Source: Cytobacillus sp. NCCP-133
GTDB lineage: Bacteria; Bacillota; Bacilli; Bacillales; Cytobacillaceae
Length of the DNA stretch: 64,000 nt
NCBI RefSeq assembly: GCF_026011715.1
Contig: NZ_BRVM01000006.1
Span: forward strand, 39,955 to 103,954
Reading direction: 5' to 3'
How positions within the stretch are numbered: position 1 is the stretch's first letter; each line of letters begins with the position of its first letter. Below, one piece after another: positions 1,492 through 55,524 of the stretch. A program made the position numbers and the translations under genes. Under the pieces are notes generated by a model, which had not been told where the DNA came from, did no database searches, and saw only the letters and a list, made by a program, of their open reading frames with translations.

Positions 1492-1675
1492 GAAAAGCGG
1501 AAGGCGCCCGCCTATCGGCAACAAGCATTAGACGATCCTCCCAAAAGGCAAAGGATGCCTTTTTGGGAGGATCGTCTCTGTGCTTACCTGGAGTGGGCAA
1601 TAAGGAAAGCTACTTAGAATTATCATCGCAGAACAAGCGGTCTTTGGTTGTTCCGAAGACGCTTCCGCTTTTCTT
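1492..1675. repeat. Palindromic intergenic repeat with perfect outer ends
   Basis: The spacer between two convergent genes is one large imperfect palindrome. AGAAAAGCGGAAGG, directly after the stop at 1489-1491, is repeated in inverted form at 1660-1675, which overlaps the yuiC stop. Inside, a 20-base arm (1531-1550) pairs with 1556-1576. The left end resembles the AAAAGCGCAAGGCGCC family found at seven other places in the window, but the right end differs. It probably also works as a bidirectional terminator. Confidence 0.7.
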
Positions 1676-3892: not shown

Positions 3893-3960
3893 AAAAAGCG
3901 CAAGGCGCCTGGAGCTACACAGTTATCTAAGTTCAAAAGGATATAAATTCTGATATTATC
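3893..3960. repeat. Dispersed GCGC repeat, short form
   Basis: The left arm (AAAAGCGCAAGGCGCC) joins directly to the right arm (TGGAGCTACACAG, then TTATCTAAGTTC) and the tail ATATAAATTCTGATATTATC. Only one GGCGCC is present and the internal hairpin cassette of the long copies is missing. It abuts the yumB terminator. Confidence 0.82.
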
Positions 3961-3966
3961 AAAAAA

Positions 3967-4010: not shown

Positions 4011-5228
4011 TTAAAGAACCTTGAATTTACCTTTTTTCAAAACAAGGGATGGTCCGCCAACCATGTAAAGAGCACGATTATCAATCATTTTCTTCATAAA
4101 TGAAGCTTTGGAGCCAACCATTTTTTTGCCGAATGCAACACCGATTGCATCGTCCTCGCCAAGGGAACATACAGTTCCTTTAATATCAGGTGTGAATGTT
4201 TCCAGTTCAGTTTTGTTGCGGATTAAAGCTGTTAGGTTTCTCGCACATACTTCACCTTGCTGCATGGCGATCTGAGCAGTAGGAGGGTATGGACGGTTAA
4301 TTTCTTCATTAATAATTAAAGAACAGTCCCCAATGATAAACATGTTGTCATATCCAGGAGCCCTTAGATCCGGCTGAACTTTTACACGGCCGCGCATGGC
4401 CTCAATGCCTGAATTCTCAATAATGGAGTTTCCGCGTACTCCTGCTGCCCAGACGACTGTTCCAGCTTTAATTTCCTCTACTTCTTCTTCGCCTTTGCCC
4501 ACAATGATGCCTTCAGGTGTAGCTTCTTTAATGGCAGTGCCAATCATGAATTGTACGCCTTTTTTCTCCAAGTGAGAAACAGCATAGTTAACAAGTTCGG
4601 GATCAAAACCAGGAAGAACCATTGGCGCTGCTTCCACACAAATTATTTTTACTTTGTGGTAGTCTACATCATATTCTTTGCAAAGTTCAGGAACACGGTT
4701 TGCCAATTCACCAAGGAATTCGATCCCTGTAAACCCCGCACCGCCGACAACAATTGTCAGGCGCTCATCCTTCTTCTCAGCTTCAGAATTGTAAGTAGCA
4801 AATTGATATTCAATATGCTCGCGGATTTGACGTGCTGCATTTACATTGACAATGGAGAATGCGTACTCCTTTAACCCTTTGATTCCAAACGTTTCCGGCT
4901 CAGCGCCAAGCGCCACAACAAGGTAATCATAGTCCATTTCGCCGTTTTCTAATATGACTTTCTTTTCTTCTGCTTTAATTTCAAGCGCAGTTCCCTGAAC
5001 AAATTCAACCTTATTGCGATCAATAACATCTTTAATATCATAGCGTACACGATCATGATGAAGTGTTCCGGCTGATGCCTCATGCAGCCAAGTTGTTTCA
5101 TAGTGGTAATCATTTTTATTCACCAGTACAATTTCTGCTTCATTTGTCCCTACAGATTTCTGAAGACGAGTTGCAACTATCAATCCGCCATAACCTGCAC
5201 CCAGGATAACAATCTTTGGCTTTCTCAA
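4011..5228 (-). CDS. yumB: Type II NADH dehydrogenase YumB
   Basis: A single-subunit FAD NADH:menaquinone oxidoreductase of the NDH-2 family, about 405 residues. It has the N-terminal FAD motif VILGAGYGG, the second dinucleotide fold [14 protein letters not shown] and the C-terminal FAD-contact region FIIGDCS. It feeds electrons from NADH into the respiratory chain at the membrane face without pumping protons. The long reading frame opens at GTG 5243, but alignment by eye with B. subtilis YumB (MRKPKIV) and the AAAGGTGG site favour TTG 5228. Possible Rex/FNR-like palindromes lie upstream. Confidence 0.88.
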
Positions 5229-5321
5229 ATGTATCACATCCACCTTTATAAAATATTTTCTAATGTTCTTATTATCTTCCGCTGCTTTATCTATTTTATT
5301 GCAAAAAATAGATAAAAAACT

Positions 5322-8181: not shown

Positions 8182-8360
8182 AAAAAGCGCAGGGCGCCTT
8201 GCCCACAAAAGGAACGCAGACTAAGAACGCCACTTCCTGAGGCAACGTCTGCATGAACCCCCATCCTGGAGGCCTCAAGCACAAGCCAAGCCTCACTAAA
8301 AAGGCGTCCTTTGCCTTTTTGGGAGGTTGGCTTAGACCCAAGAGCCGATGGCGCTGGAGT
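8182..8360. repeat. Dispersed GCGC repeat, long form
   Basis: It starts at the base after the TAA of the DUF2225 gene with AAAAAAGCGCAGGGCGCC, holds an internal hairpin (AAAAAGGCGTCC … TTTTTGGGAGG region, 8296-8330) and ends GAGCCGATGGCGCTGGAG. The usual TTATCTAAGTTC tail is replaced by the following terminator. Confidence 0.8.
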
Positions 8361-8407
8361 TAAACAGTAAAAAGGAGCGAACACAGTTCGCTCCTTTTTA
8401 CTGTTTA
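8361..8407. terminator. Bidirectional terminator, 22-bp perfect stem
   Basis: TAAACAGTAAAAAGGAGCGA… pairs perfectly over 22 bp with its complement around a 3-base loop (ACA). It lies between convergent DUF2225 and yuzB, and its right end overlaps the yuzB stop. Confidence 0.88.
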
Positions 8408-10104: not shown

Positions 10105-10160
10105 GAAGTGTGACATGAAAAGAGCATCCACCCTTGGATGCTCTTTTCATGTCACACTTC
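10105..10160. terminator. 26-bp perfect hairpin between yutJ and yuzD
   Basis: GAAGTGTGACATGAAAAGAG… (10105-10130) pairs over 26 bp with 10135-10160 around a CCCT loop. The right arm contains the last three codons of yuzD including its stop, so it works as the yuzD terminator and probably also stops yutJ transcripts. Confidence 0.85.
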
Positions 10161-10475
10161 CTGGTATCCGTATTTTTCCATTTCCGCATAAATCGTTTTC
10201 AATTTTGGATTTCCTTCGCCGACGATTTCGTTCTCAAGCAAAACGACCGGATAAAACATGTCTTCGTCAATAACACGCTGGGCAAATTCCTTTTTATCCG
10301 CCTCTTCAGGAGGGTTGTGGATATCCACATAGCTGATATAAAAAGGCTGATCTGCGTATTTTCGCGCCAGTGCGGCTTCCAGCCATTCGTAAGTCTCTTT
10401 GGATGATGGAAGGTTCACACAGCTTGGGCACAGCTGTGTCGCACCATAAACAACAATCTCTACTTCTTTTTTCAA
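10152..10475 (-). CDS. yuzD: Thioredoxin-fold protein YuzD (DUF1462)
   Basis: A 107-residue protein with the redox motif CPSC at residues 16-19 (GATQLCPSCVNLPSS), at the place of the CxxC in the thioredoxin fold, and VVLLENEIVGEGNP near the cis-proline region. It is the YuzD/DUF1462 family. Its position beside yutI, an NfuA-like Fe-S protein, is conserved in bacilli and suggests a redox or metal role, but no substrate is known. The start at 10475 follows a GGGGGA site. Confidence 0.85.
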   Translation of the reverse strand: MKKEVEIVVYGATQLCPSCVNLPSSKETYEWLEAALARKYADQPFYISYVDIHNPPEEADKKEFAQRVIDEDMFYPVVLLENEIVGEGNPKLKTIYAEMEKYGYQEV

Positions 10476-10639: not shown

Positions 10640-10879
10640 ATGGCAGAACAAACGACTATGACTGAACAAGTTCAGGAAGTATTAGATAAATTGCGTCCAT
10701 TCCTTCTTCGCGATGGCGGGGACTGCGAATTGGTGGATGTTGAAGACGGCATCGTTAAGCTTCGTCTTCTTGGTGCTTGCGGAAGCTGCCCAAGTTCAAC
10801 GATTACGTTAAAAGCCGGTATTGAGCGCGCTCTTTTAGAAGAAGTACCGGGTGTAGTCGAAGTAGAACAAGTATTTTAA
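10640..10879 (+). CDS. yutI: NifU C-terminal-type Fe-S scaffold YutI
   Basis: A 79-residue protein made of a single NifU C-terminal (NFU) domain. The cluster-binding CGSC motif is at residues 47-50 ([10 protein letters not shown]). It likely carries a [4Fe-4S] cluster bridged between two subunits and delivers it to targets. The start is ATG 10640, preceded by GGAAAGGAGT; the upstream ATG at 10619 overlaps this ribosome site and is rejected. A long-form dispersed repeat begins at the base following the TAA. Confidence 0.92.
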
Positions 10880-11085
10880 AGCGCAAGGCGCCTTGACCTC
10901 CCCCGACAAGCACAAGACGAGCCTCACGGAAAGGCATCCTTTGCTTTTTGGGAGGCTCTCCTGAAATGTGGAGGCGACTGCCCAGGGACGACAGGCATAA
11001 GCCGTAACTAGACAAACTAGTGCCTCTAGGGGGCAGGCGCTGGAGCTAGACAGTTATTGTAGTTCAAATGCTATACTTTCTCATT
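10880..11085. repeat. Dispersed GCGC repeat, long form
   Basis: Left end AGCGCAAGGCGCCTTGACC directly after the yutI stop. An internal arm pair around 10923-10960 contains AAAGGCATCC and GCTTTTTGGGAGG. Right end GGGGGCAGGCGC, then TGGAGCTAGACAG and a diverged TTATTGTAGTTC tail. The outer arms CTCCCCC and GGGGGCAG can pair, closing a cruciform. Confidence 0.82.
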
Positions 11086-11091
11086 TTACAG

Positions 11092-11120
11092 AAAAGCGAT
11101 GTCACGCAGACATCGCTTTT
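11092..11120. terminator. Bidirectional terminator between yutI and thrB
   Basis: A perfect 11-bp stem AAAAGCGATGT/ACATCGCTTTT with a 7-base loop. A T tract follows on the plus strand and a shorter TTTT on the minus strand, where it terminates the hom-thrC-thrB operon. Confidence 0.88.
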
Positions 11121-17505: not shown

Positions 17506-17572
17506 GAAAAGTGCAGGGCGCCTTGAGCTAGACCGTTTATCTAAGTTCAAAACGTTATACTTCTTATCTTAT
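17506..17572. repeat. Dispersed GCGC repeat, short form
   Basis: GAAAAGTGCAGGGCGCCTTG followed directly by AGCTAGACCG, TTTATCTAAGTTC and CGTTATACTTCTTATC. There is one GGCGCC only and no internal hairpin cassette. It begins at the base after the yutG stop and ends about 10 bases before the terminator. Confidence 0.8.
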
Positions 17573-25934: not shown

Positions 25935-26093
25935 GAAAAGCGCAAGGCACCTTGCTCACCCCAGACAAAACAAGACGAGCCGGCTGAAAGGTTGTTTTTT
26001 AACCTTTTGGACGGATTGGCTTAGATCCGAGAGCCGATGGCGCCTGGAGCTAGACAATTATCTAAGTTTAAAGGGATATAAAGTTGATATTAC
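25935..26093. repeat. Dispersed GCGC repeat, long form
   Basis: GAAAAGCGCAAGGCACCTTG starts 7 bases after the lytH stop. The internal hairpin differs in sequence from other copies (AAAGGTT at 25987-25993 pairs with AACCTTT at 26001-26007). It ends GAGCCGATGGCGCCTGGAGC, then TAGACAATTATCTAAGTT and AAGTTGATATTAC, abutting a terminator. Confidence 0.82.
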
Positions 26094-26129
26094 AAAAAAG
26101 GACTGTCCTTTTGCACGGACAGTCCTTTT
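26094..26129. terminator. Bidirectional terminator between lytH and metS
   Basis: AAAAGGACTGTCC pairs perfectly with GGACAGTCCTTTT around an 8-base loop, with T tracts on both strands. Confidence 0.9.
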
Positions 26130-28403: not shown

Positions 28404-29984
28404 TTAACTAGCGGTTTTCTCTTGAATTGCGCCATCTTTCCGATTGCCTGCCAAAAGAGCAAAGGCAAAGACAAGTACGGCAACAGCCAGCAATGCAAAG
28501 ATTGTGCTGCCTGTAAACCCGATTATCAAGTAACCGACAGAGGCAATTCCTGCTGAGATCAGCGCGTATGGAAGTTGCGTCATCACATGGTCAATATGAT
28601 TGCAGCCTGCTCCTGTTGAGGAAAGAATGGTAGTATCAGAAATAGGAGAACAATGGTCGCCAAATACGGCTCCTGCCAATACTGCTGCCATCGCCGGAAG
28701 CAATAGGCTAATATCCGTTGCAGCTGCGATATCTCCTGCGATTGGAAGCAGGATGCCAAATGAACCCCAAGATGTCCCTGTACTGAATGCCATAATTCCA
28801 GCGATAATAAATAGAATGACAGGCAGCCAGGAAGTACTCATATTTGAGCTTTCCACCATTCCAGCCAGATACTTTCCAGTTTCCAAACGGCCGATTAAGT
28901 CAACGATTGCCCACGCAAACAATAAGATATACACAGCTGGCAGCATGGCTTTAATGCCTTCCCATACCCCTTTGCCAATTACGTTTGAGTTAATGCCTTT
29001 TAAAACAAATGCCTGGCGAAGAAATAGTGCCATCGTGACAAATAAACCAAACAGGCCGCCTAAGATAAGAGACTTTGAAACATCTGTGTTTTCAAAGATT
29101 TGCAGAATCGTTGCGTTTCCTTCAACCACCTGTGATCCTGTCCAGACCATAGAGCCCACAGTACCAATTACAAGTGCCACAATTGGCCAAACAAGATCAC
29201 CCACTGAACCTTTAGAACTTGTTGGAAGATCATCCTTTAATTCGCCTGGTGCAGGCTTCTCAGGATCCATAACCAAACCTTCTTCGATTGCTCGCTTCTC
29301 ATGAATTTTCATTGGGCCAATTTCAATTTTTCTCCATGCAACAATGAAAACAATGGCTAAGGTAGCCCATACATAAAGGTTCATCGGAATCATTTGAATG
29401 AAAGCCGAGAACGCTGTATATTCTGAAACATTATGCGCTGCAAGGATCGTGCTGATCAGCGCAATGATGTAAGCACCCCAGCTGGATACTGGTGAAACTA
29501 CACAAACGGGCGCTGAAGTTGAATCAATTAAGTAGGCAAGCTTCGCGCGGGAAACTCGCTGGCGGTCCGTAATCGGACGCGAAATCTGCCCGACTGCCAG
29601 AGCATTAAAATAGTCGTCAATAAAAATGATAATACCTAATACAGCTCCGACAATCTGTGCACCTGCACGGGTTTTTACCCGCTTCATTGCCCATTCGCCA
29701 AATGCCCGGCTTCCGCCTGAGATTGAAATAAATGCAGTAATGATTCCCAAAACTAACAAGAATAAGATAATATATACATTCCAGGTGTTCAGCTCTCCTT
29801 CTGAAACGAAAATTCCTTTTACTGCATCAAATATAATGCTAAATGTTTCTGTAATGCTGAATTCAGCCAGCAAAAGTGCTGCTGTTACGATCCCCACTCC
29901 CAAAGACAGAAGTACGCGCCTTGTCAGAATAACCATTGCGATTGCTACCAGCGGCGGCAGCAGGGAAAAGATCGTGTTTGCCAT
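28404..29984 (-). CDS. NhaC-family transporter under lysine riboswitch control (LysW-like)
   Basis: A 526-residue membrane protein of the NhaC Na+/H+ antiporter superfamily with about 11 spans. Typical loops are present (FIDDYFNALAVGQISRPITD; DSTSAPVCVVSPVSSWGAY; AVFGDHCSPISDTTILSST). A lysine riboswitch precedes the gene, so it is most likely a lysine transporter rather than a plain ion antiporter. ATG 29984 follows GAGGAGGA; the frame extending to 30113 runs through the leader. Its leader carries a piece of the dispersed repeat between riboswitch and start. Confidence 0.85.
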   Translation of the reverse strand: MANTIFSLLPPLVAIAMVILTRRVLLSLGVGIVTAALLLAEFSITETFSIIFDAVKGIFVSEGELNTWNVYIILFLLVLGIITAFISISGGSRAFGEWAMKRVKTRAGAQIVGAVLGIIIFIDDYFNALAVGQISRPITDRQRVSRAKLAYLIDSTSAPVCVVSPVSSWGAYIIALISTILAAHNVSEYTAFSAFIQMIPMNLYVWATLAIVFIVAWRKIEIGPMKIHEKRAIEEGLVMDPEKPAPGELKDDLPTSSKGSVGDLVWPIVALVIGTVGSMVWTGSQVVEGNATILQIFENTDVSKSLILGGLFGLFVTMALFLRQAFVLKGINSNVIGKGVWEGIKAMLPAVYILLFAWAIVDLIGRLETGKYLAGMVESSNMSTSWLPVILFIIAGIMAFSTGTSWGSFGILLPIAGDIAAATDISLLLPAMAAVLAGAVFGDHCSPISDTTILSSTGAGCNHIDHVMTQLPYALISAGIASVGYLIIGFTGSTIFALLAVAVLVFAFALLAGNRKDGAIQEKTAS

Positions 29985-30002
29985 TACTTGTCCTCCTCTG
30001 AA

Positions 30003-30050
30003 ATTTGATTGGTGTCCAGCTGCAGGCGCCTTCCGGCTTTTCGCTAGGGG
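30003..30050 (-). repeat. Partial dispersed GCGC repeat in the lysW leader
   Basis: On the minus strand GCGAAAAGCCGGAAGGCGCC is followed by TGCAGCTGGACA, matching the left and right ends of the short repeat form with some changes. It lies inside the untranslated leader, between the riboswitch terminator and the start codon. Confidence 0.6.
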
Positions 30051-30082
30051 AACAACAAGGATGATGACAGATCGAAAATAAA

Positions 30083-30122
30083 AAAAGAGCAACGATAGAG
30101 AAAAATCTATCATTACTCTTTT
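30083..30122 (-). terminator. Riboswitch terminator of the lysine leader
   Basis: A 17-bp stem that pairs completely only as minus-strand RNA: the two C/A mismatches seen on the plus strand become U-G pairs. TTTTTTTAT follows. It is the expression platform of the lysine riboswitch. Confidence 0.85.
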
Positions 30123-30144
30123 GAAGTAATTAGTTTCTCCATCA

Positions 30145-30350
30145 CGATCTGTAGCTCCCCATTATGAAGGCTTTGACAAAGTATATTCATACTTTCCCCT
30201 CATAATGACAGTGTTACTTCTATTCGAAGTAACCCCAGCGGAATAAACGCTGACCCATTTATTCTGCTTCGGCAAAATTCCCTTTCAGCTGTGGTCACGG
30301 TTGTCATCCTCGCACAGCTTACTTTTGAATCCTGCACCTCTACCCCATCG
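30145..30350 (-). ncRNA. Lysine riboswitch (L-box)
   Basis: On the minus strand the conserved core is present: GGGTAGAGGTGCAGG, AAAAGTAAGC, TTTTGCCGAAGC, GCTGGGGTTACTTCG and ACTGTCATTATGAGG. Helix P1 forms between CGAT…GTAG (30350-30340) and CTAC…ATCG (30154-30145). It binds lysine and, with the following terminator, should stop transcription of the NhaC-family gene when lysine is plentiful. Confidence 0.92.
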
Positions 30351-40074: not shown

Positions 40075-40142
40075 AAAAGGCGCAAGGCGTCTTGCGCTAG
40101 ATAGTTATCTAAGTTCCAAAGGATATAATTTCTTATATCATA
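40075..40142. repeat. Dispersed GCGC repeat, short form
   Basis: AAAAGGCGCAAGGCGTCTTG followed directly by CGCTAGATAG, TTATCTAAGTTC and GGATATAATTTCTTATATC. There is no internal cassette. It abuts the yurZ terminator. Confidence 0.8.
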
Positions 40143-43347: not shown

Positions 43348-43503
43348 AAAAATGCCTTTCTGCACATGAGCAGAAAGGCATAAAAAATTAAGTCCTTTCT
43401 CTCATCTATCAAAGCAATGCTTTGAGTGAATTGGCACCATTTCAACTTAATGACGGTTGCCGGGCTTCATAGGGCACTTCCCTCCACCTCTCTTGATAAG
43501 AGC
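43348..43503 (-). ncRNA. SAM riboswitch (S-box) of metNIQ
   Basis: On the minus strand CTCTTATCAAGAGAGGTGGA, GGGAAGTGCCC, ATGAAGCCCGGCAACC and GGTGCCAATTC form the S-box core (43503-43399, P1 CTCTTATC with GATGAGAG). The intrinsic terminator ATGCCTTTCTGC/GCAGAAAGGCAT plus T tract (43385-43348) follows. SAM binding should turn the transporter operon off. Confidence 0.95.
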
Positions 43504-45038: not shown

Positions 45039-45176
45039 AAAACCCTCTTCACAAGAAGAGGGCTGTATCATCTCTTCTTATCTTTCAGAGCCATTTGCTC
45101 TGCTGGATTTAGCACCGTGTAAATTACCGGTTGCCGGGTTTCATCGGGCCAGTCCCTCCGCCGCTCTCGATAAGAA
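45039..45176 (-). ncRNA. SAM riboswitch (S-box) of metY
   Basis: On the minus strand TTCTTATCGAGAGCGGCGGA, GGGACTGGCCC, GATGAAACCCGGCAACCGG and ACGGTGCTAAATCC give the S-box core (45176-45075). A terminator stem CCCTCTTC/GAAGAGGG (45062-45043) followed by TTTT is the off-state platform. Confidence 0.95.
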
Positions 45177-51345: not shown

Positions 51346-51359
51346 TCTATTCCCTCTCT

Positions 51360-51580
51360 TTCTATAAAGTGAGACTTCACACAGAGGGTTTTTTTTCCCG
51401 CTGAGGCTGAGTGTTAATCGAGGCCCGCACGATGCGGGTCACTCAGACGTTGCTACAGGATGTGCTGAATTTAGTCTGAGTTCCTCTTTCGGGCTTATAC
51501 GGGCAATTACGCCCCGCAATTCAGTCCCGATTCTCCTAGTTTCTATTTGGCGGCTTACTGCCTGTTAAACTGCGATAAAT
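51360..51580. repeat. Structured CGGGC repeat (copy 2) between fadN and fadA
   Basis: A 220-base compound element inside the fad operon spacer. CCCGC-ACGAT-GCGGG is a hairpin; CTCAGAC … GTCTGAG (about 51440-51482) closes a larger stem. The right half, TCGGGCTTATACGGGCAATT … TTACTGCCTGTTAAACTGC, matches the repeat at 6664-6762. Confidence 0.6.
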
Positions 51581-51596
51581 GTTTTAATCTATTTAA

Positions 51597-55286: not shown

Positions 55287-55492
55287 GAAAAGCGCAAGGC
55301 ACCTTGACCTCCCCCGACAAGCATTAGACAATCCCTTCCAGAAGGTGTTTTTTCCTTCTGGAAGGGATTGGATTATGATCCCGAGTCCCTAGGAGCCGAA
55401 ACTAGACAAGTTTGTGACCTCGAGGGAGGTAGGCGCCTGCAGCTAGACAGTTCTGTAAGTTCAAAGAGATACATATTCTGATATTATAAACA
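55287..55492. repeat. Dispersed GCGC repeat, long form
   Basis: GAAAAGCGCAAGGCACCTTG begins at the base after the coat gene stop. The internal hairpin is a perfect 16-bp stem (55330-55345 with 55354-55369) unlike the sequences in other copies. The right end reads GAGGGAGGTAGGCGCCTGCA, then GCTAGACAG, TTCTGTAAGTTC and ATATTCTGATATTATAAAC. The arms TTGACCTCCC and GGGAGGT pair. Confidence 0.85.
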
Positions 55493-55494
55493 AG

Positions 55495-55524
55495 AAACCG
55501 CTGCAATCCTTGTAGCGGTTTCTT
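55495..55524. terminator. Bidirectional terminator before yusU
   Basis: GAAACCGCT/AGCGGTTTC stem with a roughly 11-base loop, following the repeat. Confidence 0.78.

Follow-up and report, generated by a model that had tools for sequence, protein, structure and literature searches.

Repeat copies and neighbouring genes in the window

The window, by which we mean the whole 64-kb stretch of DNA analysed here, holds nine copies of a dispersed repeat: eight lie on the plus strand, and the ninth, on the minus strand, is partial (Table 1). The starts given in the preliminary description (3893, 8182, 10880, 17506, 25935, 40075 and 55287, all on the plus strand) were all re-found in the sequence, as were the diverged copy at 1492 and the partial minus-strand copy at about 30003. 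The copy at 8182 follows the stop codon of the upstream open reading frame (ORF) without a gap, and that at 3893 is succeeded by an A-run and the terminator hairpin of the opposite-strand gene at 4011–5243. The partial copy falls within the 5′ part of the longest ORF (28404–30113), about 20 bases 5′ of a later, likely start codon. Elsewhere in the window, Rfam riboswitches were matched at 30144–30350 (lysine) and at 43399–43502 and 45075–45176 (-) (both SAM), and a perfect 26-base inverted repeat with a 4-base loop lies at 10105–10160, near an ORF at 10134–10406.

Table 1. Repeat copies and associated features in the 64-kb window.
Feature	Position	Strand	Composition
Diverged copy	1492..1673	.	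Left-type ends (GAAAAGCGGAAG) on both sides, in inverted orientation
Short copy	3893..3962	+	Left end, one GGCGCC, right tail
Long copy	8182..8368	+	Left end with GGCGCC, Bacillaceae-1 module, hairpin module, right border GGCGCT, truncated tail
RF01690 (Bacillaceae-1) module within the long copy at 8182	8205..8272	+	65.4 bits against a gathering cut-off of 35
Long copy, core 165	10878..11092	+	Hairpin modules, right border GGCGCT, tail, then terminator
Short copy after stop codon	17506..17578	+	
Long copy, core 110	25935..26096	+	Left GGCACC, right GGCGCC, full tail, then A-run and terminator
Partial copy	29996..30034	-	Left end fused to the beginning of the tail
Short copy	40075..40142	+	Near-perfect palindrome GGCGCAAGGCGTCTTGCGC centred on GGCGTC; tail, A-run and terminator follow
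Spacer occupied by a second type of insertion, also bearing Bacillaceae-1	51346..51596	-	Rfam match at 51424-51490
Long copy, core 151	55287..55496	+	Directly after stop codon

Long copies had been described as bearing GGCGCC at both borders, yet none of the four long copies in the window has the exact motif on both sides: those at 8182 and 10880 combine a left GGCGCC with a right GGCGCT, and those at 25935 and 55287 a left GGCACC with a right GGCGCC. Copies with GGCGCC at both borders do exist elsewhere in the genome (loci L034, L040, L060 and L251). For the short copies, the description of a single GGCGCC is accurate at 3893; the copy at 40075 has GGCGTC, and that at 17506 reads GTGCAGGGCGCCTTGAGC.

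Folding above chance was seen for the long copies at 55287 (z -6.07), 8182 (z -2.27; RNA parameters) and 10880 (z -2.52; DNA parameters). Among the short copies, only that at 40075 (z -3.12) folds better than its shuffles (z 0.02 at 3893 and z -0.40 at 17506). Covariation in the folds was weak, with double changes in 5 of 19, 2 of 17 and 2 of 14 pairs, counted without a shuffle control.

A frame of two ends around a variable core

From left to right, the element comprises a left end, an outer stem, modules, the mirrored outer stem, a right end and a tail (TTATCTAAGTTCAAAAGGATATAAATTCTGATATTAT), followed by an A-run and the hairpin of a host terminator. The left end reads GAAAAGCG(C/G)AAG(G)CGCC, taking the form (T)AAGAAAAGCGCAAGGCGCC in the window's genome and GCGGAAGCGCC in most of the congener copies printed; the right end reads (G)GCGC(C)TGGAGCTAGACA or the variant TTGCGCTAGACA. 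The ends of the core are inverted repeats, AGCGCAAGGCGCC against GGCGCCTTGCGCT (agreeing at 11–13 of 13 positions; more often ...TGGAGCT) or GGCGCCTGGAGCT, and form a terminal stem. GGCGCC is the inner end of the terminal inverted repeat formed by the first two of these sequences and, being self-complementary, makes the inner stem arm a direct repeat as well; in the short form, both arms are fused on a single GGCGCC. Conserved sequence continues on the right for about 50 bases beyond the copy as first delineated (TTATCTAAGTTC...TTCTGATATTAT). This AT-rich tail, which the element has in the window's genus, lies outside the core inverted repeats and is part of the element.

Core lengths fall into classes of 15–17, 30–32, 49–57 and 100–111 bases and then near 170, 232, 295, 355 and 411, with 142, 151, 206 and 259 lying between classes.

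Copy number and taxonomic spread

The genome that contains the window measures 4.3 Mb in 62 contigs. The family is real, with repeats at high copy number against zero for a reversed control: the exact left end GCGCAAGGC(A/G)CCT matched 44 times, palindromic places being counted on both strands, and the reversed pattern 0 times. A search with a short copy as query located at least 43 places, at least 40 of which cover the right end and 3 the left end only; these counts are lower bounds, drawn from the 40 of 166 first-look candidates that were scored. Stretches fetched from the genome yielded 54 tail sequences, belonging to 28 short copies, 24 long copies and 2 copies without a left end, a set that is incomplete and weighted towards copies like the two queries. 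As in miniature inverted-repeat transposable elements (MITEs), the copies are small, numerous, devoid of coding capacity and, two of the three short copies excepted, folded.

Across the bacterial family, the left-end 19-mer was present in 92 of the 121 genomes sampled, representing 21 of 25 genera. A 25-base tail pattern identified 38 stretches; they come from Cytobacillus, Neobacillus and Bacillus sp., and from records labelled Sporosarcina globispora and Paenibacillus sp. One long copy used as query against plasmids and phages gave no match.

Two other sequences came to light in these comparisons. In the 23S–5S rRNA spacer of genome G020, a stretch of about 124 bases is similar to inner modules (GAAAAGTGGAGGCGACTG...TAGGAGCCGAAGCTAGACAAG) and lacks the ends of the element; it is absent from genome G021. 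Another repeat, of about 240 bases with the ends GGCTGTTTTCG...CGAAAAGAGCC, occurs at locus L062 (about 1000–1290), in the right flank of L013 and in the G026 spacer orthologous to 8182–8404, where TAAGGAA stands on both sides; it looks like a classic terminal-repeat MITE family.

One module is the Bacillaceae-1 RNA

The repeat had been taken to be uncatalogued, which is right in part. One of its modules is the Rfam family RF01690 (Bacillaceae-1), whose cut-off that module passes, a match that applies to the module and not to the element as a whole; the rest was not found described, in that open-library searches, including six sequence strings of the element, returned no published account of it. 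Rfam curates RF01690 as an sRNA gene, and the accessible portions of two further sources list it as a table row (Weinberg et al. 2010; PMC2864571) and as 8 structures among new Bacillus subtilis annotations (BSGatlas).

RF01690 has 60 matches in the window's genome and occurs in 34 of 36 genomes of the genus. When the top-scoring loci were fetched (n = 24), the left end and/or the tail surrounded the module in 18, was absent from 5 and could not be parsed in 1. At the level of the family, with filters stricter than those of the left-end scan, 30 of 61 genomes gave matches, representing 17 of 25 genera. Three genomes of one genus group (G054, G073 and G085; group g20) carry the left end and have no RF01690 match; thus, Bacillaceae-1 is an optional module.

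The module is also found in another setting. The RF01690 match at 51424–51490 lies in a spacer that measures 254 bases in the window against 37–43 in 14 of 15 congeners, so this stand-alone Bacillaceae-1 likewise belongs to a lineage-specific insertion, which is a second mobile host of the module. We note separately that the frame of this insertion reads, on the minus strand, ...TTGCCCGTATAAGCCCGA ... CACTTTA and that similar frames occur at loci L182, L199 and L205. The orthologous spacer in genome G009 contains a different 201-base sequence (GGAGGATGAAAGGGAACAGG...), perhaps a further repeat family.

Copies are insertions beside terminators

The region of the window is largely collinear with that of ten congeners and of five more compared subsequently, and where one species has a copy, the spacer in others is short and plain. 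The diverged copy at 1492..1673 stands where seven congeners have a terminator spacer of 51–57 bp, the spacer of the 3893 copy is without a copy in the seven congeners compared, and at the place of the 10880 copy the congeners compared have a short plain spacer. The spacer of the 17506 copy holds a long copy (core 142) in G007 and another insertion in G015, and is plain in the rest compared; the site of the 55287 copy contains cores of 50 to 411 in other species. Across the congeners, 54 copies were grouped into 22 sites, 11 of which are filled in at least two genomes; these counts include site 15 (core 30 in G026 and G008), which is unlike the element and probably a pattern artefact, and some sites scored as empty do hold a copy that escaped the patterns, as in G007 at site 1, in G017 at site 6 and in the window itself at site 5.

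Genomes G020 and G021 share 99.5% amino-acid identity over up to 24 proteins and about 99.4% DNA identity over 368 kb aligned. At site 12, G020 carries a 150-base copy and G021 is empty, with CTCCTTTAAA abutting AAACAAAACC; the flanks are identical over 1000 bp on the left and about 570 bp on the right. The empty allele has 6 A, compared with 3 + 2 around the element, showing that nothing was duplicated at this site. The clean empty orthologous sites in relatives, together with this near-identical pair that differs by one copy, establish the copies as insertions. A target-site duplication, which is a feature of both MITEs and BOX elements, is thus absent from the G020/G021 pair; at most other sites the exact ends are hidden in A-runs, as any duplication of up to 3 bases would be.

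Site 12 is filled in G009, G018, G028, G032 and G034 as well and empty in G006, G007, G008, G017 and G026, a distribution that implies either precise reuse of the site or precise departure of copies. Empty sites could also come about by homologous recombination with an empty allele, and copies at the same site could be separate insertions. Among the gaps in 372 kb of collinear G020 and G021 sequence, larger unaligned gaps being left out, we saw one whole-element difference, which suggests that activity is low or past; the other gaps in the comparison were IS-sized insertions, rearrangements, larger unaligned gaps and small indels.

The seats of the copies are asymmetric. Scoring 32 copies in the window's genome, the majority of which came from the short-copy query, we found a hairpin score of at least 20 within 55 bases to the right of the tail in 17 of 32 copies and to the left in 1 of 31, a count in which the left-side entry of the 10880 copy is invalid (left end misplaced, core 79). 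An opposite-strand ORF ends within 250 bases to the right of 23 of these 32 copies, and 6 of the 32 start within 10 bases of a same-strand stop codon. From the asymmetry of hairpins and opposite-strand ORFs, the right end tends towards the T-run side of an opposite-strand terminator.

Cores differ in length at shared sites

At sites filled in several genomes, length differs by at least 20 bases in 7 of 11 cases (7 of 10 without site 15). The recurrent differences correspond to a module of 121–123 bases, the 65-base Bacillaceae-1 module and a module of 59–60 bases. One position of this last module is a TCCT loop of Bacillaceae-1, where TCCT borders it at either end; the other is in the right end, between GGCGC and TGGAGC. 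As a 59-base hairpin (CCCAAAAGCT...CTTCCTTG), it occupies (G/A)TCCT loops of Bacillaceae-1, and elsewhere the right end, in G006 and G007 at the site orthologous to 55287 and at loci L023 and L033. At L033 the module seems to be interrupted itself.

Orthologous spacers bear out the view that long and short copies represent alternative states of a single element. At site 3, a 92-bp cassette between direct GGCGCC repeats is present in G017, and G032 has the short form with one GGCGCC. Over the 35 core bases compared outside the cassette, G032 is identical to G017, G028 matches at 97% and G020/G021 at 91%; left flanks and tails beyond the core are alike, although not identical, indicating that the long and short forms at this site go back to one insertion. 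G017 lies within a group with the short form on the species tree, in which one branch has a support of 0.50, so that a single gain is no less parsimonious than several losses. At site 1, G028 and G017 are 96% identical and differ by 122 bases.

The tails tell the same story for the genome as a whole, in that they do not divide its long and short copies into the separate lineages that had been named as the contrary outcome. On a tree of 51 tails (55 bases, poorly resolved; the partial minus-strand copy and two copies without a left end were omitted), at least 16 changes of the long/short label are required. The nearest tail carries the same label in a fraction of 0.49, the random expectation being 0.49 by our own arithmetic from 27 and 24 labels, without a shuffle control. 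The short copy at L002, for example, is one base from L020 (core 111) and one base from L022 (core 366).

Recombination between GGCGCC sites, or insertion with duplication of such a site, had been put forward to account for the two forms; as a general mechanism it is not supported. Among pairwise gaps of at least 15 bases at sites filled more than once, which overlap and are not independent, the flanking repeat was 0–2 bases in 94 of 104 and 3–6 bases in 10 of 104, and in pairs at least 95% identical it was 0–2 bases in 26 of 30. With flanking repeats mostly this short, slippage between repeats does not explain most length changes, and a better fit is given by recombination among the many copies or by a process that acts on folded DNA.

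Whole units also form head-to-tail arrays, at loci L194 and L134 in genomes G011 and G009. At L194 (G011 C4:356465-360587), 14 RF01690 matches lie exactly 312 bases apart, and the unit is a dimer of two elements head to tail (GCTGGACAATA joined to GAAAAGCGG); the G009 array has two units and part of a third.

Search for a mobilizing enzyme

No mobilizing enzyme was found in surveys of Y1 transposases, reverse transcriptases and IS110. A linked transposase with matching ends had been envisaged, and none was present at the Y1 (RAYT/IS200-type) loci examined: of 32 loci scanned among 59 PF01797 matches, none has the ends of the element as its own. Twenty-eight of these loci lacked any end match, three had one isolated match and one, L134, has copies near an IS200-type gene, another locus of which (L156) is free of copies. 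PF01797 at E 1e-3 had no match in ten tail-bearing genomes (G007, G014, G015, G017, G018, G019, G021, G025, G032 and G034). We rejected RAYT/IS200–IS605 as the present mobilizer, given that the three PF01797 matches in the window's genome look decayed (two contain in-frame stops and one is a 26-position fragment) and have different ends.

For reverse transcriptases, RVT_1 at 1e-6 had no match in eight tail-bearing genomes (G007, G014, G015, G016, G018, G019, G025 and G034), and in G010 the counts are 29 for RVT, 2 for RF01690 and 0 for the tail. IS110 transposases occur in 33 of 36 congeners. Neither group showed an association that explains copy number, and both were set aside. We also discarded a pair of inverted left ends 2.9 kb apart on contig 12 as a candidate autonomous copy, only one end having passed the left-end scan; judged by their first 60 residues, the ORFs between them look like host genes. 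As an observation apart, locus L061 contains a decayed IS200/IS605 copy beside a tRNA-like cluster, inside which lies a fragment of an element module (GCTAGGAGCCGAAGCTAGACGA).

Proposed mechanism and alternatives

The repeats are very probably copies of a non-autonomous, gene-less mobile element of modular build. Its frame of two ends encloses 0 to about 6 hairpin modules of about 60 bases each, which would be gained and lost at fixed insertion sites. The element would insert without target duplication at the edge of an A-run leading into a terminator hairpin, a place that, for a terminator of the opposite strand, lies just past its T-run, and would probably also be able to leave a clean site. 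Because its seats lie between stop codons and terminators, insertion should be nearly harmless; we assign the element no host function.

HUH single-strand transposition and site-specific recombination are both known mechanisms. The lack of target duplication, the hairpin ends, the clean sites and the head-to-tail arrays would fit either; the first three are best fitted by the HUH/IS200–IS605 manner, and we suggest, tentatively, that a transposase may act in trans on the folded single strand. Such transposition seems somewhat likelier than the work of a site-specific recombinase, although it is itself a doubtful assignment. Modules may change by recombination between copies or by replication slippage across hairpins, with GGCGCC as one place at which a stem arm doubles as a direct repeat. 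More speculative still is a comprehensive picture in which a terminator-targeting, duplication-free frame with exchangeable hairpin cassettes, among them Bacillaceae-1, whose (G/A)TCCT loops take the 59-base module between TCCT repeats, might be mobilized and reshaped, in the form of folded single strands or structured RNA, by machinery shared across the Bacillaceae.

Two other routes of movement deserve consideration. Site-specific recombination, either IS110-like with a bridge RNA or of the kind carried out by tyrosine recombinases and suggested for bcr1 (TTTAT), would account for head-to-tail arrays and the lack of a clear target duplication, and IS110 transposases are widespread among the congeners. 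They are, however, too common to be informative, and a constant core dinucleotide or TTTAT at both junctions was not established, which leaves this route quite unlikely in our estimate. Group IIC introns are known to target T-runs after terminators, and a structured RNA with an A-rich end could in principle be copied by a reverse transcriptase, for instance that of a group II intron, into such T-runs. The A-rich right junction, the terminator T-run target, the structured sequence and the lack of target duplication all agree with a retro-type process; but we saw no intron-like ends, eight tail-bearing genomes are without an RVT_1 match and G010, in spite of its 29 RVT matches, has no tail match, and we regard this origin as highly improbable.

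The variation in length and the RNA structure invite different readings. Slippage deletion between short direct repeats, GGCGCC among them, might be the only source of short forms, modules never being gained, as the 92-bp cassette with its 6-base repeat at site 3, the 96% identity around the 122-base difference between G028 and G017 at site 1, and the one-tenth of differences (10 of 104) flanked by 3–6 bases would permit. The remaining 94 differences, with 0–2 bases, speak against this, as do the long form of G017 inside a short clade and the appearance of the 59-base module in different places, making deletion alone an unlikely account of the length changes. Alternatively, the repeats could be selected 3′-UTR or sRNA elements, with Bacillaceae-1 as the sRNA, spread mainly by gene duplication and transfer. 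The curation of RF01690 as an sRNA gene, the better-than-shuffled folding of long copies and the seat beside terminators are what one would expect of such RNAs. Yet most sites are not shared from one species to another, a single site can gain and lose modules, the stand-alone Bacillaceae-1 of the window is missing from the orthologous spacer in 14 of 15 congeners, and G054, G073 and G085 have the left end with no RF01690 match under the stricter filters. We therefore give the selected-RNA explanation very little credence.

Understood as a modular mobile element, an apparently unnamed and very common Bacillaceae repeat can now be described by how it is built, where it inserts and the signs that it is mobile. 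For RF01690, a curated 'sRNA' family, many copies find an explanation as parts of mobile elements, which matters for genome annotation. Sister species in which one site is filled or empty, long or short, provide a natural system for studying the insertion, loss and remodelling of hairpin-rich DNA without target duplication.

Comparison with known systems

REP and BIME sequences are palindromic and intergenic and, in the current model, are moved in trans by RAYT (Y1) transposases. By contrast, no linked Y1 gene with the same ends was present at the 32 loci scanned here, and ten tail-bearing genomes had no Y1 match. Bacillaceae-1 RNA, catalogued as an sRNA gene, is here a module in a mobile frame at 18 of 24 top loci.

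The repeats bcr1–bcr18 of the Bacillus cereus group are intergenic, 100–400 bp long, repeated and mobile-like, and bcr1–3 have been called MITE-like (PMC6542083, PMC3446304). They differ from the present element in that the available parts of these sources describe no modular cassette structure, a distinction drawn from descriptions. For bcr1, a TTTAT motif and an idea resembling site-specific recombination are on record in the accessible text (PMC6542083). ATAA/TTAT does stand at both ends of many copies in the window's genome, but in an A-run context, and not at the G020/G021 site. Bhal-1 and Bhal-2, stem-loop families of Bacillus halodurans according to the portion available (PMC2267715), resemble the element, by description only, as short intergenic stem-loop repeats in a related genome.

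By analogy, the closest known kind would be the pneumococcal BOX elements, a likeness of design. In Streptococcus pneumoniae and Streptococcus suis, BOX elements have the arrangement boxA–boxB(n)–boxC and measure 67–637 bp, and the part of the account available to us reports terminal inverted repeats, target-site duplications and a proposed link to ISSpn2 (PMC3049150). Both kinds are folded, have end modules with a variable number of inner modules, as seen here, and vary in length between orthologous insertions. In the present element, by contrast, no duplication was seen and no partner was found, and its frame takes up several unlike modules, one of them an Rfam family, on the terminator side of genes.
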